Part shown: piece after piece, positions 1 to 52,204 of the stretch | Layout: the number at the start of each line of letters is the position of its first letter | Position numbering within the stretch: position 1 is the stretch's first letter | Assembly (NCBI GenBank): GCA_027577595.1 | Contig: JANBRJ010000023.1 | Location: forward strand, 124,001-188,000 | Direction: 5' to 3' | DNA length: 64,000 bases | DNA from: Coemansia sp. RSA 487 | Lineage: Eukaryota > Kickxellomycota > Kickxellomycetes > Kickxellales > Kickxellaceae | The notes under the pieces: model-generated | Told to the model about the DNA's origin: nothing | The model's input: the letters and a program-made list of their open reading frames with translations, nothing else | The model's database searches: none | Translations under genes and position numbers: made by a program

Positions 1-3000
1 AGGATCAGACTCTCGTGCGACTTTTGCCACGCGTGGCTCCTAAACAAGCTCACATACGAGATCTTGAGCGTTGGTAGCTTTCCGTGCATGAATATGCCCG
101 TAAGGTCTAGCTGCACCTGGAAGCCAATGTACACATTCGCACGGTTGATAGTAGGCGACCACCACATTGTGAAACGGCGATTAGGGATCTGGTTAAGCCC
201 CGAACGCTGTGCGTTGGTAAGCTGGCGCTGCCCCATGGCGCCTGCGAGGGAAGTCGAGTTGTGTGAAACCAGGCCGCTGGCAAGAACAAACCGATGGTTA
301 GGCCCGTCTACCTGGAAGCCAAAGTAAGGTTCAGGAGGGACCTTGCGCACGGAGAATGGCACGCAGACACGCTTCTCTGTAATTCCGTCAGCAAGATAGT
401 CACACCACCAGCGAATCGAGTCGTTCTGGCTTAGCTTGTCCAGGCCGCCGTGCCCGGTGCTGTCCTTGGCATGGCAGGTAACAGTATGAATTTCGTATCC
501 GTTTTCCTCGTGGCGCACAATGTGAGCAGCTTCACGACCGCACATAACCAAAAGACAACGCAAAGCATGTGCAAATTCACCCGAGGTCGTGCGCGATGTC
601 AAGCAATTTCCATCCACACACTCTGTACTGATGCTCGGATGAATAATTTGCTGTGCAAGAGCCGCTCCAACAAACACAAGCGCCCGCACAAGGTGGTTCG
701 AATGTGTTCTGTATTCTGCCGGAAGCGCGAACTCTTCGGCAGCCTTGCCATCCAGACGCGGCATAAGCCGCTCGAGAGTATCGAGATCCTCTATCGGCTT
801 GCCGATAACAGCACCGTCCTGCAGATTCACCGATACGGCTGGCATGGTAGTATAGCCGGCTAGGATGTTTAACAAAGCGTTGTCGTGGAGCGGAGAGACA
901 CCTTCAACTGCGTAGGCAAGGTGAATACCTAACAGCAGCGGATCATACTCAAGTTGCTGCTGCTGGCTAAGCGCTAGGTAGTGGATAGGCACACCGAACA
1001 TCGAATACTTGGCCTTATCCATCGCGGTTAGGCTGTTGAACTCAGAAACAGTCATTTCAACAACGTCCTGGCTGGCGCAGGAGCTCAAAACCAAAACGTG
1101 GTTGCTTGTGACCACGACCTCCGAGTGCGCCCAAGCCGGGATTTCTAGCGCATACATATCTCCATTCGGGCCACGGACAAGCTTCTCGACTTTGCGCGGA
1201 ACAGAATCGTCGCCCATCAGAAGATCGCCCTCAGAAATGTCCTGCACACGCCGTGAGGATCCATCGCTCATCAAAACAAGCGTGTCGCATGCAAAGCACT
1301 GCTGCTGCCAGAACAAGCCCTCCCATGTCGGATAGTACGTCCCGCGGAAAAGCGAGTGTTCAAGAATACATTCGACACCTCCAAGAGCCTGAATCATGTC
1401 CGTGCGATAGTTGTTCAGCTGCCAGAGCTTGCCGTCATGCTTGGCATGGGTCCACCACATCGGATTTGCTTTTGCGATCTGGTACTGCTTCCACTCGGTT
1501 CTGATACGCCACCCCTTGTCATAGGCAAGTGTGTGCCTGTCCTTGGAGAACAGCGTATTAATGCGCGGTATTCCCCTGTCCCAAGAGTCCTCTAGGTCCT
1601 CAAGCGTCAGCCGACGGTTCTGCGCGTTCGCCTCTTGGCGCTTCAGCGCATACTCGGCCCAAACGCGCTGTGAATCGACAAACTCGCTCTCCCACGGCAG
1701 TATATAGCGGAACAGGTTAGGAATAAGCTGGCCCTCCTCGTGCGACATACCTGAGCGGAAATGAGATATGCCTGTCTCGGTCTGCTTCGACCACCGCAGG
1801 TCGGACTGCGGAATAAGGACATGGCCCATGGAAAGCATACCAAGCCCACCAAGCTCCTTGGGGCAGTTCGACCCAACGACAAAGTCGGCGTGGCAGAACA
1901 GCGGCGACTGGCCGTCAGCAACCTCGAATCCAAAGTACCTTTCGGTAGCGATCGGCTGTGTAGACACGTCAAACACATCATAGTGCATGCTATCGTTCTG
2001 ATCCTGAGATATGTTCGCTTGGTTGCCATCGCAGCATCTGGATGAACAAACAGAAGAGACGCTTGGAATTCCTGAGAGATCCCCACGAATGAAAATATAT
2101 CCAAGCGAAGAATCCTTGCGAGAGCTTGTCTGAAGCCCAAGCGAGCGCGCAACCTCGTAAGCCAGGCGTAGCAACGATATGTTTTCTAGCGGCTGTGAAA
2201 TGACCACCCTGAACTCGCCCGCTGACTTGCCACACACGTCTAGCATTCCCGCAAGAAGAGACAGTCGGACCTTTGGACTTTCCGAGACAAGAATATCCTG
2301 CGCTTCAGTGCTAACCTCTCTTGTTTTGAGAATGCCAAGTGCTTCCAAGCCCCGGACAAATGTCGAGCAGCCTTGCTCATTTGAGTGACTAGCAACTAGC
2401 TTCGACCAGTGACGCAATACCGAATCAGCAATATGTGTTGCTTCTGCTGGCTCCGAGCCGACATATGCTAAGCTCGGGTTCGTACCTGAAACAGATGCTC
2501 TGGTGGTGATATCAAGCGCATTGCCACCACAAAGCCAGCATCCAAGTGCCCAGCTGAATTCCGAGACCTCCGTATCCAACTCATAGCCAATGCTTGCGGG
2601 TGCTGAAACCATGGAACAATGCAGTTCGGATATAAGCCTGGTAAGCCCTCCCTCGTGCAGACCACCCGAGAATGACCATTCACAGACCCTGTTGTTGTAT
2701 AGCATGGCACACGGAACAGGAGTCTCGCCGTGTAGATCCATGTGTTTGGCGTAAGCGAGGTAGTCGCAAACACTAATCGACCAGACATAATAGTTCATCT
2801 TTGGCATCGATTCCATTGCTGCCCGGTGCGCCTCTTCTTTCGAGTTGAATATGAGGTTTGATGACGAAGCCGGAACACAGCCATAGTAGATGGATCGGCA
2901 AGGAGGCGGCAAGTGTGTAGGATATGCCTTTGACATGATACGATAGGCAGCCTTTTGCTTGTCATGCCAGATGTACACGCAGTCGGGGGAAGCGCCTTCC

Positions 3001-6000
3001 TCGACAGCAAGCCTGCGAACACGATCTGTGTGCAAGGTAGCTTCCTTCAGGGCCATCGCTTTGCCATTGTCGGCAAGGCCAAAGAAGTTCGAATTGTACT
3101 CAAACACGCGCGAAATAAAATGTGGTCGTTCAAACCCAAGTTGCTTGTCGAACCTATTCTCGGTGAATTCTGCAATAAATGAACCGGCATCAGACCAGTG
3201 TGACTGCCCAGCACGACAAGCCCTCTCGCGAACGTTGCGCCTTGTACCAACACGAACAACCAGCCTATGCTTTTCGTTGCAAAGGAACGAGTCGTCAAAA
3301 AGCAGCTGATCGGCCTCGGCTGCATTGTTACTGGAATCAACACTAGCCTGAGAGGTGTTTGAGCATATGCTCTGCACTGAAATGCTGCTTGCTGTCCTCA
3401 CAACAGGCGCAGCATAGTTTTGAGGTACATTGCCATCGCCACACAGAGGCTTGGGCTTAGCCAGGGCAACCCTAAACAAGGGCGCAGTGCCTGACATGGT
3501 CCGAGCAACACCACGGGGCTGTCCATCGACGCCAAGAACCCTATCGCCAACACATATATCTTCAATGCACTTTGTCGAGCCGTCGGCCATACGCACCCGG
3601 AATCCGGCACCGTAGCAATAGAAGATGACTGGCGGCATGCGGTTGCTATCTTTGGAGTTGAGACCAAGCATGATGCGCGACTGGATCTTCGTCTCCGCCT
3701 TGACAAGAAGATCTAGCATCTCTCGGGTGTGCACAACAGCTTCGCGGAAATAGGTCATTAGCCCAATTAGCGCGGTGTTGAATTTGTTGGCAATCTTGGT
3801 AAACGTGGTGCTTCCCGAAGACATGAGAATCTGGCGGATCCGATTGTTAAAGCGCTGGATTGACTGCTCGTCCACGCGCAAAAATGCTGTTGCCGTTCGC
3901 TCCTTTGAGCGGTCATCAACCAAGGCCCAGGTCCCATCCTGAGCAGTTACTCCGTCGGTCAGCTGGCGGCACTTTGGCAAGATCCGCACCTCAAACCCGC
4001 ACATGTCAAACAGCAGATTCGGATTGTCGCGCGAATAGACACTAACAAATGACGCCTCGTCGTCCCACTCGATCGTCGTCAGCGAGCGCGGGAGACGGTT
4101 CTTGATGTCCCAGAAGACAGCACGGCCGAGGTTGACGTCGTGCTTCATAAGGCGCATACGACTATCGCGAGGCCAGCAGCGCTTATTGTTATAACCAACG
4201 ACGTTCTCGTTATTTGGGTCGGGGATCTCGGTCAGGTACCGCTGGATCAGCTCGCGCGAATCCTCTTCCTCATCGAAACGAAGGAGTATGTATACGCGGT
4301 CCATGTAACGCATGTACATCCTGATGGGGTGCCGGCGCTCGGTTTCGATATCCTTGAATTGCAAAAAGTCATTGGGCATGGCAGGCGAACCAGCCATGTC
4401 ACTTGCTCGCTGTAGGCCGAGGATCAGCAGATCAATGACCATTCCGTAGTATTGGAATATGAACGGCGCAAACTGAAGCCCGCGAATGAGACCATACGAG
4501 TTGACATGGTCCATGTCCTTGAAGCTTATGACAACGTTGTTCTTTGCAGTCATATAGTCGGCGAGGTTGTGGTCAAGAATCAGGCGCAGAAGGCGATTCA
4601 ACAGAGTCAGGTCGATCTTCTCAAACACACGCGCTAGCCTAGCCTCAAGCATAACCACGCATTCGCCGCTGCCCGTCTCCCAGGCCCCATCCAGGTTGTT
4701 CACGCCTTGGCACCACTTGTACACAAGAAGCGGCGATGGCTCAGAATCTGCCGGCTTGATCCACGGTGCCCAAAGCCGGCGCTTGTCAGCCTCATACCAC
4801 AGGTACTGGTCAAGGTATGCGTCTGTGATCTTCTCCAGGGGCTCGACGTCAAATACCGGAATAAGATGCGAGTACATGTCCATAAACTCGATCCCCACCT
4901 CCTTAAAGGCGCGCTGAGTAAGTAGTAGCCGCTTGATGCGATTTAGGCAATTGCGCACCACGGTGAAGTCCTCGAGCAGGAATCGGTGGTTGCCATCTAC
5001 CTCGCAGCCGTACCACTCGCCTTTGCCTACGGCCTCCACGCTGAATGCGTGGCCAGTAATCTTCGCCGCTTGCGGCGCCAGTTTTTTGTGTGGAAGCAAC
5101 ACAGGCACCAGCTCCTGGCCGACGCCGCTAAAGCGGATGGTGAGCTGGCCCTCCGGGTAGGCCACTGAGCTGGAGGGCTTTGCCGGATAGTTTGTGACTA
5201 AGTGGTTGCCCAGTGCCAAAGAGCGAGCCAGAACAACAGCGTCGTCGAACAATCGGCGGTTAGCGACTGGTTGGCAGAATGTCCAGGCCTGCTGGTTAGG
5301 CAACGGGCTGCAGCCGTCCCCATCGATCAGCCCCGCTAGCACCTTGCGCCGAGTTTCCACATCGCCGTACAAGTAAGCATTGGGAATAAACTTTTCTGTG
5401 GTGTTGAGCAGTCCATAGACCTGCAGTGCATTGCGGATCGGGTTGTGGCAGTGTTCATTGGCAGTGCGGAGGACGATCTTGACCACCGCCGTTTGAATGT
5501 GGGATGCAGGGTGACGCGGAGTGATAACAGTGCGAGTGATACCAGTTACAGAGTCCATGTAAGTGACGGTGGACTGTGGAATGATGGGATCAGCGTCCAC
5601 TTGGAAGTTTAGGTCATCATTTTCAGAAATGGTGTCGTGAACCACCTTCATGCCGATACCGTCGCCTGACACAGCGTTTAGCGGCGCCTGTAATGATGGC
5701 TCAGCAATAGGCGGATCTGCGGCTGCAGCAGTGGCAGCGCAGGCCATGAGCGACGGAGGAGGCGTGAATACATGATACTCGACACAGACAAGGCCCAGCT
5801 GAGTGGCCAGGTTGTAGAGACGACCGATGACCTCGTACGCATGCAGACCAACGTAGATACCAGTATCTACTTTATCGCCGTCTGCGAGCCACAGACCCAA
5901 ATAATACGGGTCAATCAGTGATGACTGTATAGCGGGGTAGGAGACACCAGCGCGGATAAGCATGCAGTGCGCCTTCATCTCGTCGCTCAGGCGCACGTAT

Positions 6001-9000
6001 TCGTCGATACGCACATCCAATATGTCACCCGCCTTAAGTCGAACACCATCGATGGTAGCGAGATAGCTACGAGCTGCCTGCTCGGCAGCAGCGCTGGTGA
6101 GACGCGCTTGCTCAGCAACTAAGAAGTGTGGTGTCCCGCTATCACCAGCTATGAGAGTTTTGCTTGCAAAAAAGTCGGGCTTGTATGATGCGCCAATGTT
6201 GCAATGCCGATCATTCGTTTCGTCTTTGCTATTGTAGACTGCCCAGCTGGGTTCATGCTTCACGAGGTTGCGATCGTAGTAGCGGCAGACCCAGTGGGTA
6301 GTGCCATGGAGCTTTTGCTGGTACACAACAGCGTCCACATCCAATACCTGCACAGTCAAAAAATGGCCAGTCGTGGCGGTAAAGCTTTCCGTCTTCTGAC
6401 GATACTCCAGTGCATCGTTCGGCGTGTAAGTGACACTGAACATTTCGGCGTCAGCACCATGCAGCACGCGCTTCACGCGACGTGGCTGATAGCTTTCATT
6501 GATGGATCCATCAGCGAGGAAGCAGTCGTCACCCATTAGCATGTCGCCCACCACCAATGCCTCAATCGGCTTCGATTGCCCAGAGGCGAGCTTCACCAGC
6601 GTCCCTGGCGCGAAGCACTCGTGTGGGTTGTCAAAGGCCTGCTCGATTAGCCCAAGCTCCTCGCGCTGCGACGAGTTGAGGTGGCCCTGAACAGAGTATG
6701 ACTCGCGCAACCGCTCCAGCGCAAGAATAAGGAGCTTTGGATCGTGTTTGTATGACAGCGGCGGGAATGGGATTGGCGAGAACCGACGGGATTCAAGCCA
6801 GTGCACAGTAGTCGTGTAAATAGCCACGGCTTCTTCTGCGCTAACATATGGCCCGTCCTTCAGATAGCTTCTCTGTCGTTCTTGCTCAGCCTTGAGCCAT
6901 AGACGTGTGAGCCTCCCGCAGTTGCGTCTAGCAATGGCCTTGTCGACCGTAGCCCCGCGACGGATGCGCTCGCGGTTATAGTGGGCAACTGATGTCCACC
7001 AGTCCGCCTTGGACTTTACATAGCGCAAAATCATGTTCTCGATAGGCTTGGGCATGCCTGGCACCTGCCATGGAATGTTAGCCTTGTAGCAATTGTGGAC
7101 CACAAGCCAATTCGCCAAAAGGAAAAGCGGAGAGCCCTCAAGTTCAAACCCTACATATGGAGCCTGTTCGCTGATCTGTTTCACTGTAAACTGCACATGG
7201 TCGATATTTGCAGATATCGAAGGCAAATCCCCAAGTGAAGGAGCAACAGCCCTTCTGGGTTGCTCCGATATATCCGCACTCTCGGGATGATGCTCGGAAC
7301 CCAAAAACTCAATGCTCTTGGCGCGCATCATCCGGTATTCGGAAGCCTGTTCAGCATGCACAAGGGCATAATCTACAAATAAAGCCGCGCTGACAGTCCA
7401 CAGAACTGGGGACACTGCCTCTCTCTCCAGCATAAACGCCGTGGCAGCATCGCGGGCAGCGTCCTCGGAAGCAAACTGGCGTGTGTCTTCTGAATAAGAA
7501 AAGAAACGTTTGGTCTGCTGCAGAACATCAGGTACAATAGACTTCCCCTTGTACGGCACAACATCAGCATAAACCACTTCAAAGAGACGCATCGCTGGAT
7601 CGTGAGACAGGCGCACGCAGTTATACTTTGGACATGCCAAGACCAAGTCATGGCGAGAGTTGCAGACAAAGCCAGGCTCAGTAGGCATCTGATCATCGTC
7701 AATGCCTGCGATCGCAGCTTCCGGCAAAATAATTCTAACCTCGTACATCGCATCGGAGCCACGCATAGTGGTTTTGACTGGCAGGGCCTGGCCTTTGTAA
7801 CCAAGCACCCTATCGCCAACAGCAATGTCATCTGCAGTCTTGACACCACCGTCAGCCATACGGACCAGCGTCGTTGGGGCAAAACAGCGCCACGCGTTTG
7901 ACAGGTGCTGTAGGATGACTTTGCTCTTGTTGCCACGAATTCCCTCAGGCATCATATCAAGAATATCGTGCATGACGGCCGCCCGTAGCTCCAAGTCGTA
8001 GTGGGAATCGACACGCTGCTTTGTAAGCGACTTGACGACGCCTTTTGAATTGCGCCCCTCAAACTGACGTGCAAGAAGGTTTCCAAGCCAGCGCTCAAGA
8101 AGAGGAACAATGCCACGCAGGAAAAACAGCCAAACACGCCACCCTGGCGCCCAAAACCCAACACCTGGCCCTTTGCCGACTGGCCCAGTGTTAAAGCGAT
8201 AATAGATTAGGTGCTTTAGGTCTTTGCAGGCACGGATCTGACGCATAAGGCGGTACTTGTAGCGATACATTCCTGTGAGCTGGCCAACGTGTGCAAAAAG
8301 GTACTGCAGTCCGTCGGCAAGCTGGAAAGCATCGACGTTCCCAAGACGGTATTGCACATGCGAGTCGACAACTAGCTTTGTCAGGCGCAGTATTTCGCGG
8401 CAATTATGAACAACAACGCCTCCTGCAATAAAGTTCTCGTGCTCAGGAACAGAAATGTCGTAAACCATTCTCTTGGTAGGCTCAGCAGTCACCGACACAA
8501 TGGGCACCAGAACTGCCGTTTCCAGGTAGCTAGTACCATGGTAGCGATCATTGTTAAGCTGCGACGGCAATCTAATCTTGCGATAGAAGTTGTCTATATT
8601 TGCGCTTCTGCAAGTTAGGGCTTGTGGATGATAGTCAGCCAGTTTCAAATGGCCATGCCAGCGACGCAGTATGTCAAAGCGTCTTGCTACACTACACGAA
8701 TAGCGGACACCGACGTGTTTGGAAAACGACAATAGCGACTCGTTAGGCAAACGAAGCCCAACAGATAGTAGCCTCTTGCTGCCAGAAGTACCAAGCTGTT
8801 TCTCAAAGGGCTGGGCGCTGATTCCAAACTGCTGCGCTAGAACACCCTCAACCCACTTTGTCAATCTCCTCAAAGAGTCCACAGCCACCTCGCGGTCGTA
8901 GATTGCAAGGTTTGACGCGCTGCCTCCACTGGAATTGATAGGACTCTTTGATGAGATCAGGCGTGTGCAGGCTTCTCGAATAGATCCAGCGCCCCACCAA

Positions 9001-11480
9001 GCGGCAATGAACTCGCGCTGGACGGAAGCTGGCGCTGTACTAAGGCTTCCAAACCCGTCATTTGAAAGACCAAAGCGGCCATGACGGGCGCATCCCAAGC
9101 CCATCACAGCTGCGTAAAGAATGTTAGGTAGATCCAGCTCAAATATCTTTTCGTGCTCCAACCAGATCAAACGACCATACTCACCAGTCAATAGCTCGAT
9201 GTCGGCCTGTGCTTGTTGTGCATCCAGACTATGGAGCAAGCATAAACGTAAGCATGAATCGCGGACAACACCGCCAGATACCAATGCGCCTAGAATACGT
9301 GCAAGAGCAAGCACTTGCGCACGACTCTCTGTCATACTCAGTCCGAGCAGTTGGTAGTCCGAGCCCTCGTCAGCAGAGGGATAGTCAACAACGCTGTGCA
9401 GCATAGAACCAACAACCGAGTGATCCGGGGTTAGGTCACCAGCTGCAATGTACTCGGCATTGTCAATAGTAACAGCACCGGCGCACCTTAGCATCGCAAG
9501 TACTGGGTGAGTTGGCGTAACAACCAGAGCAGTTCCATCGAGGCAGGTTATGCGCACGCAATTCTGGGGCGACTCATGAACCTGGAATGCAGAACTACTC
9601 GCTCGCCCATCAAATCCAATCGATTTTGTGGTGGTGCCTGAAAGCGGTGCCACGCACTGTAAAACATCGGCTCGGCAAATAAGCTCAATAGGCAATGCCA
9701 GTCCACACCCAAGGCTGACAGGCGTTCCAGCAGCTACACACAGGTGGAATGCATTTCCGAAACGACTCTTCTTGCGCTCCTTAGTCGTGAGCGTCTTGAT
9801 GGGCTTTAGATTAAAGTTGTAGTCCAGATGCAAGTAGTTCAGCCTCTTTCGATGGATCAACAGATTCAGCATATTGTGGCCCTGGCGGCACACCTGAAGT
9901 CCAGCTTCGACCCAGTCAATCTCTGTGGACTGAAAGAACTTTGTCGCCTTAAACTGGCGGAGGAGATACTTTTTACGCTGCGCGCGGGGCTTGGCTGTGT
10001 GTATCGCATTCAGAACATAATTCTTCAGCAATTTCTGATACGACACGCGGACTTTGACAGGCATTCCGGATGGGCAGTGTTCCATGTACCAATCCTTGAC
10101 AAGTGGGATATCCATAGCACGCCGCGTAGTGCCGGAGCGCATGTTAAACGGATGCGGTGCCCAATAAAGCGCAATGCCGCTCGATGTGCTGTCGGCTTCC
10201 AAGGGCGACTCCTGCAAAAAGGCCGACGCACACTCAGGCAAAACAAAATCGCTGTCCTCATCGCCATCGCCAAAAACCTCATCCTCAACCGAACGCGCAT
10301 CGTCCTTGAACTGCGAAACAAGACTGCGCATAGATATTGGGTTGATGACAGGGTCAAAATAAAACGCAGGGAGGTCGGGATCGTCAGGACGGATGTACTG
10401 CACCGCCGGCGTATGGTATGGCGAGACGCGCACCTTTCGAGGAAGCGAGTTGTATAGATGCGGAAAAGCAACCTTATATTCGGTACGGATAGGCTGACGA
10501 ATAATTATCTTGTTGATGTCGTTGAACTCGTTCCAATCCTCGTCTGCAGGGTTAATATCTCTGTGCATCGGCTCGAACCGCGGGCCGCCTGGAATAGCCA
10601 TGTTCATGCACTTTGCAGTGATAAACGAGTTAAGATCAAACAGATAAAAATAGTTTGGGTCGACCATATCCGACAGAAGCTGGCGTGCCAGATGATGCAG
10701 GTTGGCCATCGCCGGTAGATCCAGTCGCCATCTGCGGTAAGTTGGGCCGTTAACACGACGGCCAACGGCACTCTCCTCAGAGTCGCCTTCATCCTCCTCG
10801 GCAAGCGGCTTGCTGTCGTAGAGCCAGTCAAAGACAGGTGCATCCTCATCTTCATCCAGCTCCATCTGGATTGCCTCTAGTGGTTCCACATCAAGCAGAT
10901 TGTCACCGTAGTCAAGTGGAGGCTCCTCGTCATCAAATGGTGGGAAACGCATGCGCTTGAAGTGCTTACGATCGCGCTTCTCGCGGCGCATCATGATCCA
11001 CATGGTGCCCCACTGGGCCATATACACGGGCTCGATGACCCAGGGCACCTCGTTGACAAAGGTAATCGCGCCAGTGACATGGTATAGAACAGGAACCTCG
11101 CGCACCTGCTCCCACGGCATAGGCATGTTTTCTAGTAGCTTCAGCATCGCGTGTGGAACGTACTTGAGAGCGCCAAGATACACACGCTTGTCATGGCGGT
11201 ACTTGCGGGCGCTCATGTCGCCATGATCTTTGATGATCTTGCGTAAGTGTTCGGGAGGCATATCGCTCTTTTCCTGTTCAGCAAAGCCCATGCGTCGCTT
11301 CGTATCGTAGCGCGTGGAGTTGAGCTTTCGCCACTCCTGCGCCTTCCTGTCAATCTCGCTATGTGGGAGCTCGCAAGGAACAAACTGCGGATCCATAGGA
11401 GCTGCACTCGCCTGTGCTTTCTGCGTCTGACCGCCTTTCTTGTGGTCGCTGCGGTCCTTGGGACGAGAAGGACCCGCCAT
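1..11480 (-). CDS. PRP8: Pre-mRNA-splicing factor Prp8 carrying five inteins (C-terminus beyond window)
   Basis: Prp8 is the U5 snRNP scaffold at the catalytic core of the spliceosome. The frame starts at the ATG at 11480 (MAGPSRPKD) and stays open to base 1, 3826 codons with no stop and no intron. Host segments match Prp8 almost word for word: [97 protein letters not shown]. Five in-frame blocks with Cys at the start and Asn followed by Cys or Ser at the end interrupt it after host residues 580, 752, 910, 1354 and 1543; all five boundaries are in the same frame. Host sequence in the window totals 1628 residues, against about 2300-2400 for complete Prp8, so the RNaseH-like and Jab1/MPN domains lie to the left of base 1. 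An acidic insert at about host residues 420-450 is lineage-specific. Identity is certain. Confidence 0.98.
   Translation of the reverse strand, partial: [3826 protein letters not shown]
258..1298 (-). other. Prp8 intein 5 (347 aa) at the classic fungal Prp8 site
   Basis: Inserted three residues after the Trp of TWEGLFW, as QQQ|STSLAG, with Ser as +1. From established knowledge this matches the common Prp8 intein site of ascomycetes and Cryptococcus (EKA|SGF). Starts [25 protein letters not shown]; block B [9 protein letters not shown]; block F [15 protein letters not shown]; ends GLVSHN. The endonuclease region is shortened: [15 protein letters not shown] resembles a first LAGLIDADG motif with Asp replaced, and the second is hardly recognisable. 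Probably splicing-only. Confidence 0.93.
1866..3617 (-). other. Prp8 intein 4 (584 aa), degenerate endonuclease
   Basis: Inserted in [17 protein letters not shown] after host residue 1354; human Prp8 has Thr at +1. Starts [23 protein letters not shown]; block B [12 protein letters not shown]; block F [15 protein letters not shown]; ends DFVVGSN before Cys+1. LAGLIDADG remnants are ALGCWLCGG and [12 protein letters not shown], with Asp replaced by Gly and Cys, so cleavage activity is probably lost. The penultimate residue is Ser, not His. It is the longest of the five and shares several blocks with intein 2. Confidence 0.93.
4950..6617 (-). other. Prp8 intein 3 (556 aa) with intact-looking LAGLIDADG homing endonuclease
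   Basis: Inserted in [16 protein letters not shown] after host residue 910. Starts [24 protein letters not shown]; block B [12 protein letters not shown]; block F [14 protein letters not shown]; ends DFTVVRN before Cys+1. The endonuclease motifs [11 protein letters not shown] and [13 protein letters not shown] both keep the metal-binding Asp, unlike those of the other four elements, so this is the one likely to be an active homing endonuclease. Two oddities: the penultimate residue is Arg rather than the usual His, and the +1 host residue is Cys where human Prp8 has Ala. Confidence 0.95.
7092..7886 (-). other. Prp8 intein 2 (265 aa), no endonuclease motifs
   Basis: Inserted in [18 protein letters not shown] after host residue 752, with the native Cys as +1. 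Begins [14 protein letters not shown], followed by VGDRVLG; block B reads [11 protein letters not shown] (His present, usual Thr replaced by Asn); ends [14 protein letters not shown]. No LAGLIDADG motif is visible, so this is a reduced intein, though longer than a minimal one because it keeps an extra segment ([14 protein letters not shown], then [14 protein letters not shown]). That segment has a counterpart in intein 4 ([15 protein letters not shown], then [15 protein letters not shown]). Confidence 0.92.
8403..9740 (-). other. Prp8 intein 1 (446 aa), degenerate endonuclease
   Basis: Protein-splicing element inserted between Leu and the native Cys of the conserved [12 protein letters not shown] stretch, after host residue 580. 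It starts with Cys1 ([13 protein letters not shown]), has block-B VTPTHPVL with its His, block-F [12 protein letters not shown] and ends GGVVVHN before Cys+1, so the standard splicing residues are all present. The middle keeps the shape of a LAGLIDADG endonuclease, but the two motifs read ILGALVSGG and [10 protein letters not shown]; the catalytic Asp is gone in both. It should splice but is unlikely to home. The +1 Cys is native to Prp8 in general. Confidence 0.93.
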
Positions 11481-34277: not shown

Positions 34278-37200
34278 ATGTACGTCGAGGAGCTAATTGT
34301 CGACGGCTTTAAATCCTACGCCGCACGTACGCATATTACTGGCTGGGACCAGGAGTTTAATGCTATCACTGGTTTGAATGGCTCGGGAAAGTCGAATATT
34401 CTCGATGCTATCTGTTTCGTGCTAGGAATCCGCAACTACAAGCTGGTATGTATCAGTGCTTTCACAAGCAGCTTATAAATATCACAATATTTGTATCCTT
34501 GAACTAAACAGAAACCTCTGGTGCAATATTCTCCTATTATTTCTATTACTATCAAACCATATAGCTACGTGCCAACAACATTCAAGATCTTATCTACAAG
34601 CGTGGTCAGGCCGGAATCGTTAAGGCATCAGTAACAGTTGTGTTTAGAAACAATGACAGAAAGACGAGTCCTCTCGGCTATGAGGACTACAAGCAAATAT
34701 CGCTTACACGCCAGGTAATCTAAACGCATTCATTTCAACACTCGTGTTTTGATATTCATTATGTGTTGTTGACCAAACAATCATCATGTGCTTTCAGTCC
34801 ATTCTACTAATGCCACTATCAATTTCTCTTTGATACCAGGGTGGATAGATCATGGTCGGCGGCAAAAACAAATACATGATCAACGGGCACACTGCACAAG
34901 AGCATGCGGTTGCCAACATGCTGCAGTCTGTGCAGCTCAGCATAAACAATCCGCACTTTTTGATCATGCAGGGAAAGATCACTCAAGTCCTGAATATGCA
35001 GCCCCCAGAGATCCTTGCTATGATAGAAGAGGCAGCTGGCACGCGTATGTTTGAGGAGCGCAAAGACAAGGCGCAAAAGACCATGTCAAAGAAGGACAAG
35101 AAGATGGAAGAGATCTCGTCGATCCTTGCAGAGGAGATAACCCCAAAGCTGGACAAACTTCGTCAAGAGAAGCAGGCGTACCTCGAGTATCAAAAGGTGG
35201 AAATTGAGCTTGACCGCCTGCGTCGCTTGGTGGTTGCCTATGACTATACAAAGTGCGAGGAGTCCATCAGCAATGGCAGCCAGTCTCTTTCGGAAAGTCA
35301 ATCGCACGTTGACCATTTGTCCATGCAAATTGAAATGCTTAAAGCAGAAATCTGTGATATTGCCAAGAACAGAGCAAAAATCGAGGAAACGCGTAAAAAC
35401 GAAATGTCAAAGAATGGCGAATTCAAGGCTTTGCAGGCCCAGGTGGACGAGCTTTCCAAGGAGCTTGTAAGGATAAAAACGCAGAGCGACCTTAAAGTTA
35501 CCTCAGCTAACGAAGAGCGAGACGCAAAAGCAAAAATACTCGAATCAAAGAGCAAGTACGAGAAGGAGCTCGCAAAGCGCAGCAAGGATTTTGACAAGCA
35601 GACGGCAAAATATGCTGAAGAGAAGCTCCAGTACGACGACAAGGTCAAAGATGTCAGTCAGCTGGAGGAGCTGCTTCAGTCTCTGACCACTGGCGTTGCC
35701 TCTGACGAAGGTCGTGAGGGTGGGTTTATGCAGCAGCTTCAAGAAGCTAAACGGGAGGCAAGTGACGCAGCGACTGCTATCGAACGGGCGAAGCTGCGAA
35801 TTGGTCTGCTGGATGATGAGACAGTGCAGATAAAAACCGGTCTTGACAAGGCTCTCAAAGACAACGACAGTTTGCTGAAGGAAAAGCACACGTTCGAAGC
35901 GCAAATCATGGATATCGAAGCGCGTCTAAAGAATCACGCGTATAAACCTGAAGCCAAGAGCAGCTTGGACCAGAAGCGCGCAGAGATAATCGACCAGCTG
36001 GAGGTCGTTGATGAGAATCGCCGAAGACTCGAAGCCCAAATGAGCAACTTTGAGTTCCAATACCAGGATCCTGTGCGCAACTTTGATCGTAGCAAAGTGA
36101 AGGGCCTTGTTGCTCATCTGATAAACATTGGCGATAAGAACAGATTCGCCACTGTTGCTCTGGAGATTACCGCTGGTGCAAAGATTTATAACGTCATTGT
36201 GGATGACGACACCACTGGTACTTTGCTGCTAAACAATGGCAAACTTCGCCGCCGCGTAACCATTATTCCTCTTAACAAGATTGCTGCACAGCAGTTGGAT
36301 CCAGGTATTGTCAACTTTGCTAAGGGCCTTGCTCCGGGAAAAGTTGACACTGCGCTGTCACTTGTTGGTTTCCCCGAGGAAGTGGAAACGGCCATGGCCT
36401 ACGTTTTTGGTTCGACGTTTATTTGCAAGGACCCACATACCGCAGAACAGGTTGCATTCCACAAAAACATCCGCCGCAAGGCAGTGACGCTAGAAGGCGA
36501 CGTCTACGATCCTGCTGGCACAATGCAGGGCGGTGCAAAGCCGTCGAATTCTGGCGTGCTCGGGCGCTTGCAAGAGCTGAAAAATGCCCGTCTAAAGCAT
36601 GCTGCACTCCATAGCGAGCTTGTGGCTGTAGAGTCACAGCTTTCAGCAATCGACGAACTGAAAGATAGCTATATGGAGCTCTCTCGCGAGCTCGATCTTT
36701 CCAAACATAGGCTATCCCTTATCCAACAGCAGCTTGCGTACAGCTCGCATGCGCAGCTCTCGTCGCGCGTTGAAGAGATCACAGTCGAACGTGCTGAGCA
36801 AGAGGCGGTTTTGCCCGAGGCGACCACAAAACACCAGCTTGCTACTGATCGTGCCAAGAAAATCGAAAAAGAGATGGGCGAATTCAGCCAGGACAAGGGC
36901 GGCAAGATCAAACAGCTGAAAAAGCGCCTGGACAAGCTAAAGGCAGCACTACCCAAGGCCGAGGAGAGGATCAAGGAGTGTCAGCGAGTCACACAGGAAG
37001 TCACGCTTGAAAAAGAGGAACTGGAAAGCGAGATAAGCGATCTTATTGCACAATCGGAAAACAGCGACAATGCGATAAAGGGACTGGAAGCCGAACATAG
37101 GGACATTGAGGAGACTCTTTCTCGTACAAAGGAGCAGCTTGACAAAAAACAGACCGCGGTTAGCCGGATGAGCAAGAAGCTGATTGTTTTTGACAAGGAG

Positions 37201-38149: not shown

Positions 38150-41100
38150 TCATTTATTTGTCAGCATCTGAAGATTCATCCATGCAGCAAGATATTTTTG
38201 AGTAGATTCTGGCATATTCTTAATGTGCACCCGATATGCGTTCCTTCGAGTTCTTCGAGTGCCTATTCGATAGCCGTGTTTATCCTCGTCGCATTGTAGC
38301 CCTTGGTTTAAAATTGTGGGAGATTCTACCTTCTTCAGATGAACCCAATCCCAGAACACCATCTTGGCCAGAAAAGAAGCCGTTTCTAATGCCAACCGAG
38401 GTAGCATGCGATGCCTAGCAGAAAGTCCAACGTATTCCAGTGCCTGGTGTAGCTCCCTCATTGTTTTACAATGACTTGTTCCTGCACTGTGCGAACCAAG
38501 TGGTCTGCTTGTTTCCTGTGCTTTTTGATAAGTTCCCATTTGATCTGCAAGCGGCTGCGACCCATCTGACAGACACAGACCTCTGAAGGCAGCTTGTCGC
38601 AAGTAATCGTCAATACATGTGCTTCCATATCTGTCATTGCCAAATCCATCGGCGAGGAGCTCCGCATTTTTACTGCCGAGTACATCCGCGTCTAAAGTTA
38701 TATAGCTCACGTTCAAACATCCATCGGTCATTGGCGCTTTGTGGGAGTACATGGGCTCGTAAAGACTTTCCGCATGGAATTCTGTCACACCTGTTGTTGC
38801 GTATGCGAATGACAACATGTCGAGTGCATAAGAAGTTAGTTCGATCTCTTCCAGGCTGGATAGCGACGATTGTGGTGGTTCACTGACGCAGTTGGCAGGG
38901 TACGTGTATTCGCAACTGGGCATCGCCATAGGTATTGATGTGCATACTTTGCACGGTCTTTTATCGTTCGATTGTTGCACGTCTGTCGTATTTCTTGCTA
39001 AAGAGCTGGTCAACAAAGGTACGCTTGAACCAAAAAATCGATTATGGCTGGCTGACAGAATATGTATGTTGTCATCGACATCCGCTGGTTGTTGCTGAGG
39101 GGGAGGATCCGGCCACTTTTTATACCAGAAGCCCGTCCTCTCTGCTGTTTGTGCTGAGGCCACTAACTCAATCCAAAAGTTGAATCGCGACTCGGGAGTC
39201 TCTTGAGATGAAAGAGGTTCAAGCAGCCAAGCTATTGCCCCTTCCAAGTTTATACCTGGATATTCAGTGCAAAGCAAAGCGTCTTTGTCAATCGAATCCA
39301 CGCTGCTGTTCGTCGATTGCACAGATGATTGAATTCTTGCGCATCGGATTGCTATCTCAAGTGAGCTAAGTATTTGGTTAATATCACATTCTACGGCCCT
39401 ACACGCGCTAGAAATATTAGATGGTGAGACGAGTGCTCCCTCGGCAAGACACATAAAGAAAATGTATGGAACAAGTGCATGCTCCTTTGGCCGATGGAAA
39501 TGGAACACATGCTGGAAGCACGCTTCGTCCCAGCGCATGCAAGACATGTCATTACATGTAAGCACTATTGGGCGCTTGCTCTTGAGCGCAAGCTGCTTTA
39601 ATGCTGGCCATAGACGATGGTCCTGTTCAAATAGAATGTCTATCTGCTCAACAAGTATTAGCATTTGGTTTGTGGTATTGTCTGGCTTTACGGATCCACA
39701 TTTAGACGTTGCTGCAATTGTATGGCTAAGAAGTGCATCTTCCAGCGCATCCAAAATATCTTTACCGCTACGTCTTTGGCCTGGGTGGATCTCGCAGATC
39801 TCAAAGTTACATTCCTCTGCACATGCGTACACTGCAGCCGTCTTGCAGGAACCCGATGGTCCCGTCAAAAGGACCATATTGGAGAAAGTCTCTATTTCGC
39901 TGCTGCTCGTATACCCGCTGCCACTTCGTCTGTGGCGAGTACCTCTATGCAAGTTATCGCGCACGCTGTCCAAAGTACCGTTACTTTTTGCCCATGCAAA
40001 AACACCATGCAGACCATCGAAATTTTGATGTTGCCGGCGCTTAGTCACCCGCAACGGTACAAAATCATCGCTGCTATCAGAGTTGTAATCGCCTGTGGTG
40101 TATGGATAGTTTCCGTCGTTGTCGCTACCAGAATTGTTGGAATTCCTATCTCTCTTAACATTGAACGCCGATATAAATCCATCCCTGCGGCTTTTGCTAG
40201 AGGCAGCCGTTTCGACGAAAAGATCAACGCTGTTTGCTGTATCCCCTAGCGTCTGGTTTGACCGTTTTACCCGCATTTCTACGATCCAAGAGCGAAACTG
40301 AAGGGCAGCCTGTTGATTAGCGAGAACGTGACATATCCTCTTAGGGCGATAGCGGGACGCAAGAAGCTGATCTTTTTGGGCTAGTGAATGGGGCTGGTTG
40401 CCGCAAATTGCGTCAACAACTGGCTTGAGAAACGACATGTGCTGTGGCAAAACGGATGAGATATCCCCAAGTGCGATTTTTATTGGGGCTGCGGACGCAT
40501 TGAGCGAGCAAACCCCAGACAATCCCGGGTTCGGGGCTGGCTTATCCGTAGTTCGACTGCGAAAGACAAAGCCATCCTCTTGTCCATTTGTGTGAAAGTG
40601 CTGAAGATAGTCAATCTCGCCATGACCACTAGCTAAATCGATATTTTGCGACGAGATACGCCTACAGCGTTCGGGAGAAGCTACACAGGGAGCTGAGTAA
40701 TAGCGCGTATGTCTTGGCTTTGGCACGTGCGTATCGCCATTAGGGTATGGCGCAGGAATCCCAGGAAGGCGAAAGCTTGTCCGTTGTCGTTGACTGCGAA
40801 TACCATGTGTATCCTCTGGTCTGGAACCGTTGGTAGGAGCTAACCCTACTTTTTCTTTGGTTCCCGGCTCAGTCACATTGCTCACAGCCGCACTTGTTTC
40901 GCATACCAGTTGTTCCATATCTTGAGTTAGTGACACACTATCTGCCCTGCTTGTATTAACCTTGAAGAACGACTGTATCTTTGCAGATTTGTGCTTGTGG
41001 CTACCATTCCTTTTCTTCTGGCGTTTTATCGAACAAGCAGAATCATGTGTCGCAGATACTCTGTTGTCGTGTCCCGGGGCAGCATTTGCACGTTTTGAGG

Positions 41101-41215
41101 CCAACGGCAAAAAGAACGGATGTATGTCTTGCACAGACTTTACAGCTTTCCAGTCAGCTTGGTCTGAATCCATGCTATTATCTGGCGCGGTGGCATACGC
41201 TTCGCCAGGTACCAT
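38150..41215 (-). CDS. ELG1: Elg1/ATAD5-type alternative clamp unloader large subunit
   Basis: Large subunit of the Elg1-RFC-like complex that removes PCNA from DNA after replication. From the ATG at 41215 (MVPGEAYATAP) it has 1021 residues; any longer version starts at a non-ATG codon. The N-terminal region contains QDIHPFFLPLASKR and KIQSFFKVNTSR, a possible PCNA- or SUMO-binding area. AAA+ core near residue 450: LLTGPSGSCKTAAVYACAEE, FEICEIHPGQRRSGKDILDA, then ILVEQIDILFEQDHRLW (Walker B with Glu-Gln in place of Asp-Glu) and RPIVLTCND. The GRRSGKD-like stretch and SCKT Walker A are typical of Elg1. Its 3' end is 88 bases from that of SMC2. Confidence 0.88.
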   Translation of the reverse strand: MVPGEAYATAPDNSMDSDQADWKAVKSVQDIHPFFLPLASKRANAAPGHDNRVSATHDSACSIKRQKKRNGSHKHKSAKIQSFFKVNTSRADSVSLTQDMEQLVCETSAAVSNVTEPGTKEKVGLAPTNGSRPEDTHGIRSQRQRTSFRLPGIPAPYPNGDTHVPKPRHTRYYSAPCVASPERCRRISSQNIDLASGHGEIDYLQHFHTNGQEDGFVFRSRTTDKPAPNPGLSGVCSLNASAAPIKIALGDISSVLPQHMSFLKPVVDAICGNQPHSLAQKDQLLASRYRPKRICHVLANQQAALQFRSWIVEMRVKRSNQTLGDTANSVDLFVETAASSKSRRDGFISAFNVKRDRNSNNSGSDNDGNYPYTTGDYNSDSSDDFVPLRVTKRRQHQNFDGLHGVFAWAKSNGTLDSVRDNLHRGTRHRRSGSGYTSSSEIETFSNMVLLTGPSGSCKTAAVYACAEECNFEICEIHPGQRRSGKDILDALEDALLSHTIAATSKCGSVKPDNTTNQMLILVEQIDILFEQDHRLWPALKQLALKSKRPIVLTCNDMSCMRWDEACFQHVFHFHRPKEHALVPYIFFMCLAEGALVSPSNISSACRAVECDINQILSSLEIAIRCARIQSSVQSTNSSVDSIDKDALLCTEYPGINLEGAIAWLLEPLSSQETPESRFNFWIELVASAQTAERTGFWYKKWPDPPPQQQPADVDDNIHILSASHNRFFGSSVPLLTSSLARNTTDVQQSNDKRPCKVCTSIPMAMPSCEYTYPANCVSEPPQSSLSSLEEIELTSYALDMLSFAYATTGVTEFHAESLYEPMYSHKAPMTDGCLNVSYITLDADVLGSKNAELLADGFGNDRYGSTCIDDYLRQAAFRGLCLSDGSQPLADQMGTYQKAQETSRPLGSHSAGTSHCKTMRELHQALEYVGLSARHRMLPRLALETASFLAKMVFWDWVHLKKVESPTILNQGLQCDEDKHGYRIGTRRTRRNAYRVHIKNMPESTQKYLAAWMNLQMLTNK

Positions 41216-41428
41216 GTCGGGCTGAGAAGACGGTCTGTCTGCTTTATGGTCTTTCCTTCGCTGCTCTGCGCCGAGGCACACTGCTATAACGACCCGCAAG
41301 CTGTGCTAAAAAATAATAATGGCACAAATTTTAAAAAAAAAAATAAAGGAAAAGGTGAAGCAATGCGCAAAAGTGAAAAGAAAAATAACAACGAAATGAA
41401 ACGCGAAACAACGCGACGACTATCGCTT

Positions 41429-42385: not shown

Positions 42386-45300
42386 ATGAGCGGCACAGCA
42401 CCTTCAGCTGATCCACGAAGCAGATCAAAACCCAAAAAGAGACGCTTTGGCTTTTTCAACCTGTTTGGCCTTAGTACTGACTCGGAAACCACCGACTCTG
42501 ACAATATTGATTTTGCCACTTCTTTGAAAAGTAACCAAGACACTGCCAAACGCATCCAAAGCCAACGAAGCGGTCTTGGAATTACAGATAACAGCAACGA
42601 CAACGGGGATGACAATGTTGCGAATACTCGCTGCGACCAGAGCAATCCAACAGATGTTTCATCATCAAAAGTCGTAAGGAAGACCACCACTCCAGGCAAG
42701 TATGCTTTTTTATGTCTTTTCTTTGCGACATGCTCTTATCCTCTAGTAAATGATGCTTGCCCTTCTTCGCTTTTATCTCGTGCCTACACATTCTTTTTTA
42801 TTTTTTTACTTGCATATGGCATCTTTTGTCGCATCACCTTTGCATTGAATTGGGAACGCGTGACCTCCATTTTACCATCTGTTCATACAATCGATGTGTT
42901 TTCTATTATTCAATTGCTGCATCGAGTCGTCTGTTGTCTGTGTGGTACCTTTGAATTTTTTGCATGCTCTCCGAGATTTGATTAAGGATATCCATACTCT
43001 AATATTCTGATATTCTGATATTCTGATATTGTATGCTACCGTATTCCTAATCTGGCTATAGATTCCCACGACACAGCCCTCGCCACGCCTGCATCTAGGC
43101 CGATAATTATCTCCAAAAACGCAACTGCGGCATCTAACCGTCCCGAGAAAGATGGTGCATGTGGTGCACAAATGCGTGGCGTGGCTTCTAGCGAGCATTA
43201 TGGATATCCTCGATCCATTTCCTTGGATATACGCGACGTCAGCAGCGACAGTAGCAGTAGCAGTAGTAGTAGTAGCAGAAGCAACATAAGCAGCAGGATA
43301 TCTCGTCAGTTCGAGCCCTCGCTGCCCCCCCTTTCGCTTGGTGACAGCCGAATCCTACATGGGCAAAATGCGAGCAAACCTATCGACAGAGACAGCGGCA
43401 ACATTGGTACCTCTGTTTCTATGATCCGCACATGTCCGATTCCTGAAAGACTACGGCTTCATAAAAAAGATATCCAAGACTATTCTGCTGAGAATAGCTC
43501 TCCTGGCCAAATAGTGTCCTCAGCGAACACACTCGCCGATTCTCCTCGAACCTTGCCCGACCATGGTGTTCATCGGCGTGCAACTGTAAGCACTAGCAGT
43601 ACTGGAGGTACCCTCGATGCTGATCGTCGCAATGCACCGCGCACGCCAGACCAGCCTTTATCTATGAAAAAGCCATCCGTAATCAGTGCATCTCCTCGCA
43701 ACGAAAAGCAACATCCTACCAAGACTTTGTCATCAGTTGCGCCTGGTTCTGCAGCACGACGTACAAGCTCAACCAACTCGTCATGGTCTGTGGCAACACC
43801 CACATCAGCCAGCGATATTGCAGGTGATAACGCTGTCGCACCTGGCACGATGCTATGCGGCGGATATAGTGCATTTTTGCCTGACTGGGAGCCTGTTAGT
43901 ACAGGCCAACAACAGATGCAGGCACCACTGACACCATATCCTTTGCGATCACGTACCAAGGGTCGGCGCTACAGCGTGTTTGACGTTTCGTTTGCAAATC
44001 AGCCAAGATCTGAAGGCAATGCAGGCAACTACAACTACAGTGGTGGCGTGCCAATGCCAATACCGCAAACCACACCCATACATGCTCGCCGGCTTCACAA
44101 AATGGATTCAAGCAAGGTCTTCACAGGAGAAGAAGATACACTATCCGCTCACGAGCTGTCGTCTTTTGGTCAAAGCAGCAACGCCTCCCCGCGTAGGTTG
44201 AGATCTCACTCACACGCTGCAAAGCCTTTTCTGCGGCCAAATGCCCAGCATGACTCTAAACCGAACATGTCAATCCACTCACATCCCCATGAAGATACCT
44301 CTTTTGTCCCTCTGCGACGATACTCCCAGCAGTCTCATGGAAGTCTATCTACGTTTTCTTCTCAGGGAAATATGCTTGACGAAACATCCCAAGAACCAGG
44401 AAAATGGCAGTCTGCTACTGATGAGAAGCAAGCAGGTAGCAATGGGAAGAATAGCAGCGTCAGCAGCCGGATGAACCTGCCACATAACAGACATTTCTTC
44501 ACAGAATACCATGAGCACTCTTCTGGCCAGTCGACACCCAGTCAGACGCCATTCACACCACCTCCTTTTGGCCGGTCTAGAGGCATCGTGCCTGCTAATG
44601 CGTTTGATGCTGTATCGAAAGCTCAATCTCCACAAGCATTAAGAGAAGCTGGTCGGTCAAGGGCTGGCTCTATTGCTATTATCACCTCGAACCATACCAG
44701 TGATCTTTGGAATTATCACGACATTCATGGAAGTGATCAAACGAATGAACTAGAAGATTCGGATAAAAAGGCACCGACTTTCTTACGTTGCTCCACTTCA
44801 ATGCCTGACTTTGTGGTTACGTCTGCTTTCTCGTGCTTTGAGGAATACGAAGGTTCATTAAAGCGCCCAGACTACTACTACGAACAAATACTAGATAGTT
44901 CTCGAAATGCCAAGGCAGGAAGATGGCGAGTTCATTCTGCAGAAATAGAGGATAATACAGCACACTCTCCACAGCCGTGTAACTATTCTTCTATGGGTGC
45001 TACACACGCTACTGCTATAGATCATGTTTCGGTCGATCATGCTACCAATATTGGAAAGCAAAGCGGTGACTATCTTGTGTCTGGGTCACGGATCCCTAAC
45101 GTAGAAGCAGCGACAGTACCCTTTCCTACTTTGAAAAATACATGTACTTCCCCGCACTGCGTCGATATCGATCCTGCTCGAAACATAAGATGGAATGGGT
45201 GGACTGACGAGCTCAACAACCGCCCAGAGACACCAGTAACTGCACAAGCCGTTTACATGTGGCAAAGGATCTTGCGCAACTGGAGATATAGGCACCGCGG

Positions 45301-48300
45301 TGGATCTGATTTGTTTGGCCATCGGTGCAATGGCTCAGCAAGTTACATCAGCAATTCGGACATGCAAAGGACGCCCAGGCATATAAAAGCTGCTGATTTT
45401 GGCCATGATACTATTGCCAGAGGCACAGATATTGGGGTAGGTTCACCTTTGACAAGCAATGCTCCTGCCATCTTGTCGCCATATATAATAGAGCCTACGT
45501 ATTTGCAGCGTGGTTCGTCTGAGACCGGAAGATATGATTCCCCAGTTGGTACATTGGCACCATTATATTCGCTGGGCAGCCACAGCCAAGCAAGTAGGGC
45601 AAGACATCCAGGTGTCTTTCTTGAGCACTCTGAAGGCAGTCCCTCTACCACGACAGCGTCTCAACAAGCGTGGGGCTCGGATGCGAGCTGCGCTGATGGT
45701 GGTAAACAGGATTTGTCCCCTTTTTCTGCGTCAGAACCAAAGCCGACTGCGTTTTTCAGTACCGTAGATGAAAACAGCCAAATGTTGCAACCAGCTCCGC
45801 ACAGAAGGCTTAGTGTTATAAAAAGCCAAGAACTAGGCATTCACCGAGCGCCTAACAGACTTGGTTATGCCAGTACTCAAGACCACAGCAGTGTAGCCAG
45901 TGACAAGACGTCAAGAAGCACAGCTAGAGCTTGTGCAGCTAGTGCTGCGAGCAGAGAAAGGCAGAGCACTGGTGACACAAATACACATGCTTTTTCTGGA
46001 GCCGCAGAGAAGCAACCTATCGTCATTGCGCAATTGGAACCCCCGGATCAGGTCGTGGACACACTATATTCGTTTTATACACGGCTACGGTTACGGCTTG
46101 AAAAGGCTAAAGCTGAGAGCGAAAGCGAGCTTTTGAGGATAATACAGGATCTCGGAGGATTTGTTGAAGACGGACTTAGATATGTAAACGAGGACTCAGA
46201 CCCTAGTGATCCGGAAAGCGTACATGGTGTTGCCCATTGTGCCACGGCTATCAGCGAGAAGGAGGCATCGTATATATCTGGCGACGATGAAGATGGCACG
46301 CACACACCTGGGCTCGTTATTGCAAGGAAATCGCTATCTGACCAACACTCCAAAAATTACTTCCAGGATGGCCCCACTGACAGTGGTAGCTACCTGTTGC
46401 CCTTCGAACCAGAAATGAGGGGCTACAGCCGAAGCTCTGCAAGGCTTGGGCTGGAATGCCTTAATGGCCGTTTGCACGACATGCTTGACCTTCATGACAG
46501 CCGTGTCGAGGAAAGCTCTGGTAGGGCATCATCTGCTGAGCCTGGTTCATACGCTACGCATGACGTTGCTACTTCACAGATAGAGCTCGACAGTAGTGAA
46601 CAGTCACGGCCTCATGGAAAGCTTGTAAAAGCCCCTTCAATCCGTAGACTTGCGGTTCTAAAGACACTGGCAGGCGGAGCGGATAATGCCTTTGTTCCTG
46701 GCGTAGACCAATCACGCCACCATGTTGACAAGAGACGCAGTCGTGTGGTGACTGCACAGTTGGCACAAGAAAGCAAATTCGAAGTTGGTGCGCTGGATGC
46801 ATCTCGGAGCGTGTCTCCAGATATCCCAGAGCTTGAGTCGCGCAGATACTCTTTGGATAGGTCCAGTGTCACCGAACGCAGGCCATCTCAAGCATCAGTA
46901 CACTCCATTGGTTCTCGCTCTTCGCTGGCCGCCTCTCCGCTGATTGAAGAAGATCGGTTTAAACCGACTCCTTTAATCGAGGCTATCATGGATCTTGTGA
47001 ATATTATTGGCTGTGTGATAAATCTGAGTGCCGACGATATGCTTCACCCGATTTCTAGTCAGCTTTTAGACGAGACACTAGAAAGTGCAAACGAGACTGC
47101 CGCATGCTTTAACGCTGAGGAAGAACGCGAACGTGTCCTATCTATGATGCCCACAGAGTATATTGTCCAGCAGCTTAATGCTCTGGGATCTATGTGGCAG
47201 CGGTCATCTCTGTTTCTTGGCAATATAGATACTGAGCAGCAGCAGCAGCAGCGACAGCAACCATGGCCATGTCGCGGCTTGTTTTTCCGTGCACTGCTTT
47301 CAATATCCTCGCTGAACCGGATTGTAATGTGGTATGTTGCTGTACGCTCAACATATAGCGAAGACGTTATTGAACAGCTTGACAAGCGGACACAAGTCGA
47401 CAGTTTTACCGGCAGTCCGGAGCAGGGTCCAGGACTTGTAAACGACAGCTTATCTGACAATCAAACGCAGAGTGATACGGCCAGCGTGCCCAGCTTGCCG
47501 TATATCTACACAGATTCCCCGAGTTCTCCAGGCATCTCCAGCTCAGCCATGACCTCTAAAGATGTAGTCCATAACACCCCACCCAAGCCAAGGGGGATAG
47601 TAAAAGCGAGTATTGCCAGCAGCTCCGGCCTATATCAAGATGAGTCGCAGCAAGCCTCCACAGATATCATTTCCAGCAACAACAGCACCGATTCACAGGT
47701 TTATGACGCCAGCCGTCCGCCTCAGTGGAACAAAGCTGCAAGCTCGATACTAGACACCGCAGTGTTTGACAAGGGTCTAAATATGCTTTTGGAGGTAGCT
47801 TTGGATGGTCGGATCCGATATATTAGCCCTACATGCCGACAACTGCTTGGAATAGATCCAGAATCCGTGGTTGATTTGCCAACAACAGCAATATTTGACA
47901 CTGAGGATGCTCAAGTGTGCCGCTCGGCGGTAGAACAACTTTTAGCTGACAGCACACGCACGGTCGAGATAGGCGTTAAAGTGCATGGCCCTGGAAGCTC
48001 GATAGTTGTTGATGTAGAGGCAAAGGGAATGCTGATGTACAGTCGGACAAGGAATGAACCAAGCCACGTGCTGTGGGTCCTTCGGTATGTGCCCTCAAAA
48101 TTGCTTGTGCGTAATGCACAGATGGACGCTAGCACTTACTCTCTAGACAGCAAAGCTGGCTTGGCCAATGATGGTCATGTATTACCGGTATTTGAGCTGA
48201 TCACCTGTCGCATCTGCGATATGTCTGTGCCTGTTACGTATTTTGAGGAACACACGTGGCTTTGTGCAAAATCGCATCGAGCAGCTATGGATGTTTGTCG

Positions 48301-51300: not shown

Positions 51301-52204
51301 AACCAGCCCGTCCCCATTGGCCCGGACCACACATCGATACTCACATACGGGAATATCTTTCGGTGGTGACGTTGATAGTAGTGGTATTACCAGCAGCAGC
51401 AGCAACAGCAACATTGCTTTACAACCTTATCAGATGATACCAGCACGCAAGCTGCTGTCTACGCAAGTATTGCACAATACTGAACACCAAGCATCACGTC
51501 CCGAAAATGCTACGAGCCCTTATCAACAACGCTATAGCTATGACCACCAACTACCATTTACGACTGCTGCTCATAAGGATCACCACCTGCACATGAGCGA
51601 CCGGTTACCCTTATTTGGAGCATCTCCCGAAGCACCTTCGTCTGATGCGCCGGACTCTGGGCCTCCAGCAACACAGTATGGATACGGTCATCGCAAAAGC
51701 TTGCTTAACCCTGACGCTCGTCTGCCTTTTCATAGCTATAAACCTCCGGTAGCATCACACGGCAGCGATATCTATCGCCCGGCCACGACAAGTGATCTCG
51801 ATTCGGAAATACACATATCATACGACGAGCCTAAAGAGCCAGCATACACGCAGAGTAGTATCTGCTTGGTTGCAGATGACAACCCGGTGTGTTGCAAAGT
51901 TATGGAAGTTATGCTGCGGCGGCTGCATCTCCAGTGTGTAATTGTGCGGAATGGTGCCGAGGCACTGCGATGCGCAATGGGACGCACGGCTTTTCGGGCA
52001 ATATTTATGGATACTGGGATGCCTATTGTTGATGGCGATGAGGCTACACGGATGATAAAATCCACATACAACATCAACAAGAACACCCCAGTCATCGCAA
52101 TGACCACGTACGAAGGTGAAGCTGCTGATGCATTATATGATGGATCGATTGTCAAGCCGGCCACGCTACAGCACGTCAAAAAGAGCTTGGCGTACACGGA
52201 TTGA
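42386..52204 (+). CDS. RIM15: Rim15-type PAS/kinase/receiver protein kinase, two exons
   Basis: Nutrient-signalling kinase; yeast Rim15 acts below PKA, TORC1 and Pho85 in entry into quiescence, partly through the Igo1/2-PP2A module. Exon 1 is 42386-42695 (MSGTAPSADPRSRSKPKKRR), exon 2 is 43062-52204; the intron is 366 bases with a GC donor (CCAG/GCAAGT), the only donor that keeps phase. 3150 residues. Order: Ser-rich N-terminus; PAS-like domain about 1674-1790 (LEVALDGRIRYISPTCRQLL); C-x2-C motif ITCRICDMSVPV with a trailing Cys and His (about 1818-1845); kinase about 2164-2630 (ISKGAYGSVYLAKK, NVVHRDLKPDNLLID, LTDFGLSKLGFLGRR, then GTPDYIAPESILG) with a roughly 180-residue insert between DFG and APE; receiver domain 3037-3150 (LVADDNPVC, phosphoacceptor Asp3087 in FMDTGMP, AMTTY, IVKPA). 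AGC-related NDR/Greatwall branch. Confidence 0.96.
43003..43032 (+). repeat. 8-bp tandem repeat in the RIM15 intron
   Basis: About three to four copies of ATATTCTG in a row, about 30 bases before the 3' splice site. The branch-like TCCTAAT follows at about 43045. A small slippage repeat. Confidence 0.85.

Follow-up and report, generated by a model that had tools for sequence, protein, structure and literature searches.

A fungal prp8 gene with at least five predicted inteins, most likely from more than one family

Introduction

Prp8 is a known hot spot for inteins, and reports mostly describe one intein per gene. Across eukaryotes, more than 100 Prp8 inteins are recorded at seven sites, nearly all of them at site a (PMC5784728, PMC6805012). 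This Prp8-a site lies in the 1585 loop, between the thumb and the endonuclease-like domains (PMC6805012), and is the site of the structurally characterised inteins of Cryptococcus neoformans and C. gattii (PDB 6mx6, 6mwy). Cryptococcus has a single mini-intein of 171 residues there. More generally, a 2023 fungal genome paper describes eukaryotic species with two or more inteins as rare (PMC10849329), and three is the highest number mentioned for a fungal nuclear genome (PMC5784728). Archaeal multi-intein genes contain about two inteins on average (PMC10643990). The ribonucleotide reductase gene of Trichodesmium erythraeum is an essential gene with several inteins; it is bacterial and harbours four, according to PMC1635734, which cites Liu 2003.

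This report examines a window of 64,000 nucleotides from Coemansia sp. RSA 487 (contig JANBRJ010000023.1, positions 124,001 to 188,000), one end of which is occupied by a prp8 gene. Its product probably contains at least five inteins that are protein-spliced from one precursor (estimated probability 0.88), compared with the four of the bacterial Trichodesmium gene. The elements are of known kind; their number and mixture in one eukaryotic spliceosome gene are unmatched in the accessible literature. Within this incomplete coverage of the literature, the largest number located for one gene is the Trichodesmium four, and five in a eukaryotic gene exceeds every count encountered. The view of the first-pass annotation that five inteins in one essential gene are exceptional agrees with survey maxima of three (fungal nuclear genome) and four (one bacterial gene).

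The Prp8 reading frame

On the minus strand, the 5′ part of prp8 (1..11480) forms a stop-free frame of 3826 codons, which begins with an ATG at 11480 and is still open where the window ends at base 1. An in-frame stop lies just upstream of this ATG. From its sequence, the frame can be assigned to Prp8 with certainty. It contains the Pfam domains PRO8NT, PROCN, RRM_4, U5_2-snRNA_bdg and U6-snRNA_bdg, with strong scores of up to 718 bits, and its six host segments align end to end with human Prp8 (phmmer). Chance is excluded, because the Prp8 domains score this highly and every inserted block alone passes a Pfam intein/Hint cut-off (see below). The first-pass annotation had described an unbroken frame of 11.48 kb, with five in-frame blocks of 446, 265, 556, 584 and 347 residues, each starting with Cys and ending with Asn followed by Cys or Ser, and 2198 intein against 1628 host residues. 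Recomputation returns the same frame, blocks and totals; the residue that follows the block (+1) is Cys in the first four (I1 to I4, in gene order) and Ser in the fifth (I5).

The window ends at about residue 1590 of human Prp8, and the 3′ end of the gene lies beyond it. Since the last ~745 C-terminal Prp8 residues fall outside the window, five is a minimum count. Third-position GC is 0.48-0.58 in the inteins versus 0.65 in the Prp8 exteins (window 258-9740); the exception is I3, at 0.63, the intein whose endonuclease active site is intact.

That this prp8 is a decaying or superfluous paralogue, its function being supplied by a second, intein-free copy, is very improbable. All 1628 host codons are intact, and near the junctions the encoded sequence is almost that of human Prp8. 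Moreover, all five inteins retain their splicing residues, which a dispensable copy would be expected to lose.

The window also encodes a Duc1-domain protein, a Rim15-like kinase with a receiver domain, a forkhead factor, SMC2, fibrillarin and a muskelin-like protein. Together with the paucity of introns, this gene content points to a fungus, probably from an early-diverging lineage. The Rim15-like protein (43172-52204; 3010 residues) combines a split kinase domain with a C-terminal response-regulator domain, all within a single unbroken frame. A protein of 1049 residues (38150-41299) has no Pfam match and appears Elg1-like by eye, in its P-loop region. The SMC2 gene contains a GTATGT...TAG spliceosomal intron (34446-34564), from which it follows that the organism needs a working Prp8 and spliceosome. 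There seems to be a second SMC2 intron, with its end near 34848 and a TACTAAT branch-like motif before it.

Insertion sites

All five blocks are on the minus strand. I1 (446 residues; 8403..9740) precedes the equivalent of C547 in human Prp8, and I2, a mini-intein of 265 residues (7092..7886), precedes that of C719. I3 (556 residues; 4950..6617) and I4 (584 residues; 1866..3617) are inserted before the equivalents of human A877 and T1318, respectively. In yeast Prp8 numbering, the +1 residues of these four correspond to about 622, 793 (an estimate), 950 and 1390. I5 (347 residues; 258..1298) is inserted at yeast ~1579 and human ~1506, within the 1585 loop between the thumb and endonuclease-like domains, and by its position in the sequence it can be placed at the classic Prp8-a site. 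It shares both this loop and the Ser at +1 with the Cryptococcus inteins, and differs from the Cryptococcus mini-intein in its greater length and in being one of five.

When the blocks are removed, the host sequence rejoins without gaps to human and worm Prp8, both intein-free, at human positions 547, 719, 877 and 1318. The fifth joint differs by one residue from human Prp8, in a variable loop near 1506. In gene order, the rejoined host sequence reads AFHL-CREI, AWR-CYK, NPHE-CLNR, VIFY-CPKE and WQQQ-STSL. The first-pass annotation had proposed as a check an alignment with Prp8 from intein-free fungi; against the human protein, four joints out of five are seamless and the fifth is within one residue.

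At human positions 547 and 719, the Cys that serves as +1 residue is also found in the intein-free human and worm proteins. In the cases of I3 (+1 codon at 4947-4949) and I4 (1863-1865), the codon specifies Cys, which can act as a splicing nucleophile, where human and worm Prp8 have Ala877 and Thr1318. These Cys residues may be ancestral, or else they may have been acquired during homing, through co-conversion of the DNA next to the intein.

The organism has spliceosomal introns, and some blocks might in principle leave at the RNA level. This explanation is hardly credible, as all blocks are open in frame and carry intein domains and catalytic residues. GT-AG intron removal was also considered for each block; none yields the same host junction in that way, and the RNA reading was rejected. 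Removal at the RNA level is one of the outcomes that the earlier annotation had named as its refutation, and on the sequence no GT-AG pair gives the precise junctions.

Intein identity and families

Each of the five blocks separately exceeds the Pfam curated cut-off for an intein/Hint family, namely PF14890 for I1 and PF05203 for I2 to I5; a search of intein collections had been suggested at first pass. Profile matches, catalytic residues and the reconstruction of empty sites together support the assignment of all five as inteins, as originally proposed.

I2 to I5 can be placed by sequence in the fungal VMA1/Prp8 (Hom_end_hint) family, whose Saccharomyces cerevisiae VMA1 member, PI-SceI, has a Hint domain that is matched by I2, I3 and I4. 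I2 scores 78.6 bits against PF05203 over residues 1-264, matches PDB 1gpp (E 1.7e-11) and resembles domain I of PI-SceI. I3 matches PF05203 (47.1 bits) and PF05204 (23.4 bits), and aligns with PI-SceI (E 1.9e-08). For I4, the corresponding values are 50.5 bits (PF05203) and E 2.8e-08 (PI-SceI). I5 scores 62.9 bits with PF05203, and its best PDB matches are the Cryptococcus Prp8 inteins, which are thus its best solved relatives. A PDB fold search with an AlphaFold model of I4, predicted with three of its siblings, ranks PI-SceI and Prp8 inteins first. This model has a mean pLDDT of 37 and is confident only over its first ~45 residues and some of its C-terminal end, so that the fold match lends weak support, and the assignment of I4 is carried by the sequence matches.

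I1 falls into a different, prokaryote-like family. It scores 39.8 bits against PF14890 (Intein_splicing; cut-off 35.8) and 26.5 bits against TIGR01443 (cut-off 15.6); the match rests on block B and the C-terminus, with a weak match at the N-terminus. The C-terminus is closest to those of archaeal CDC21 (MCM) and RadA inteins, with which it has nearly the same motif (VYDISVPEHENFIAGGVVVHN versus VYDLQVPEHHNFIANGIFVHN). I1 differs from these archaeal inteins in residing in a nuclear gene of a eukaryote and in having an endonuclease region that is no longer recognisable. I1 has no match to the Hom_end_hint family of I2 to I5, and no significant similarity to any of these four in pairwise searches. 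As the family match of I1 differs from that of the other four and significant pairwise similarity is absent, at least two distinct intein families have most likely invaded this prp8 gene.

Viral contigs were scanned with three queries (I1, I3 and the N-terminus of Prp8) and genome contigs with two (Prp8 and I1), and no relatives were found in either set; among phage records, the single match to I1 is weak (E 0.05). The five inteins are too divergent for their joint alignment to serve as a search query. AlphaFold modelling of I1 alone gives a mean pLDDT of 33.

Within the array, I2 and I4 are the closest pair. They share 40.7% identity over the splicing blocks, group with an ultrafast bootstrap of 82 in a very small tree, and both carry a VMA-type CNxxH block B. 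It is conceivable, if rather doubtful, that the two are copies of one another and that the array arose partly by internal transposition between sites. The support is modest, the reference set is very small, and yeast VMA1 gives I2 a better score (42.4 bits) than I4 does (36.0 bits).

Splicing residues

All five inteins possess Cys1, the block B His, a terminal Asn, and Cys or Ser at +1. At the penultimate position, I1, I2 and I5 have His, I3 has Arg and I4 has Ser; the first-pass annotation had missed that I3 and I4 are without the usual penultimate His. Ending in Arg-Asn and Ser-Asn instead of His-Asn, these two inteins could splice more slowly. In a phage intein, the identity of the penultimate residue alters the splicing rate, whereas natural inteins without a penultimate His can splice fully (PMC5050341).

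These observations bear on an alternative in which protein splicing of one or two inteins, with I4 or I3 as the likeliest, is inefficient or conditional, such that mature Prp8 is limited or regulated. The penultimate Arg of I3, and the penultimate Ser of I4 together with its NxxH block B, are in keeping with this idea, as is the rate effect in the phage intein; conditional splicing also has a parallel in the Cryptococcus Prp8 intein, which is affected by copper and zinc (PMC6805012). Nevertheless, Prp8 is essential, so every intein must splice enough for growth, and full splicing without the penultimate His is on record. Poor or conditional splicing is therefore regarded as unlikely.

Endonuclease state

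The catalytic residues of the PI-SceI endonuclease, two Asp and two Lys, are taken here to be D218, K301, D326 and K403. I3 retains a match to all four (D246, K409, D434 and K512). Among the five, I3 alone keeps a complete LAGLIDADG homing-endonuclease active site, and it is probably still homing.

A full set of these PI-SceI-type residues is not present in I1, I2, I4 or I5. I4 has a recognisable LAGLIDADG-like region from which the aspartates are gone; its first motif, identified by eye, is CWLCGGN and contains no Asp, and Cys occupies the position of D326. Inspection of the sequences of I1 and I5 revealed no convincing LAGLIDADG motif pair. A long local alignment of I1 with the PI-SceI endonuclease was set aside as unreliable, since it contains many gaps and phmmer saw no similarity. 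I2 has no endonuclease. The endonucleases of I1, I4 and I5 thus look degenerate, and relative to PI-SceI in VMA1, these Prp8 inteins include one without an endonuclease (I2) and one with a degenerate endonuclease (I4).

Such a range of states agrees with the homing-cycle model, in which inteins that became fixed at different times should differ in this way. The apparently dead or absent endonucleases of four of the five, and the origin of I1 from another family, had both escaped notice at first pass.

Proposed mechanism

The gene would be transcribed into an mRNA that is translated into one precursor; its length would be about 4,570 residues, provided that the C-terminal part outside the window has the usual length and no intein. 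Each intein would fold as a Hint domain and start the reaction with an attack of its Cys1 on the upstream peptide bond. The chain would then be transferred to the Cys or Ser at +1, the terminal Asn would cyclise, and the host segments would be joined, to give a Prp8 of about 2,370 residues. Because the insertion sites lie in conserved Prp8, it is reasonable to expect that removal of all five is needed for pre-mRNA splicing.

As for the origin of the array, the inteins probably entered prp8 independently, with at least two families as sources, and spread through homing. Four would later have lost their endonuclease or retained it in degraded form. Inteins in this state would persist because they are seldom lost precisely, and because Prp8 would be inactivated if splicing failed.

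Significance

The locus adds new intein sequences, two of them with unusual C-termini. An ambitious interpretation, which we put forward tentatively and judge unlikely to hold in full, is that this essential eukaryotic gene has become an intein sink, which houses at least five inteins side by side, drawn from two or more unrelated families, with one still mobile and four fixed, and that the five splicing events may form a combined, stress-sensitive gate on spliceosome supply. With five inteins of mixed ancestry at different stages of the homing cycle, this prp8 gene is a natural locus in which to study why some genes collect inteins. The array lets one ask whether inteins that lie close together impede or promote one another's homing, and it poses the question of how a cell copes with this number of obligatory protein-splicing steps in the core of its RNA-splicing machinery.
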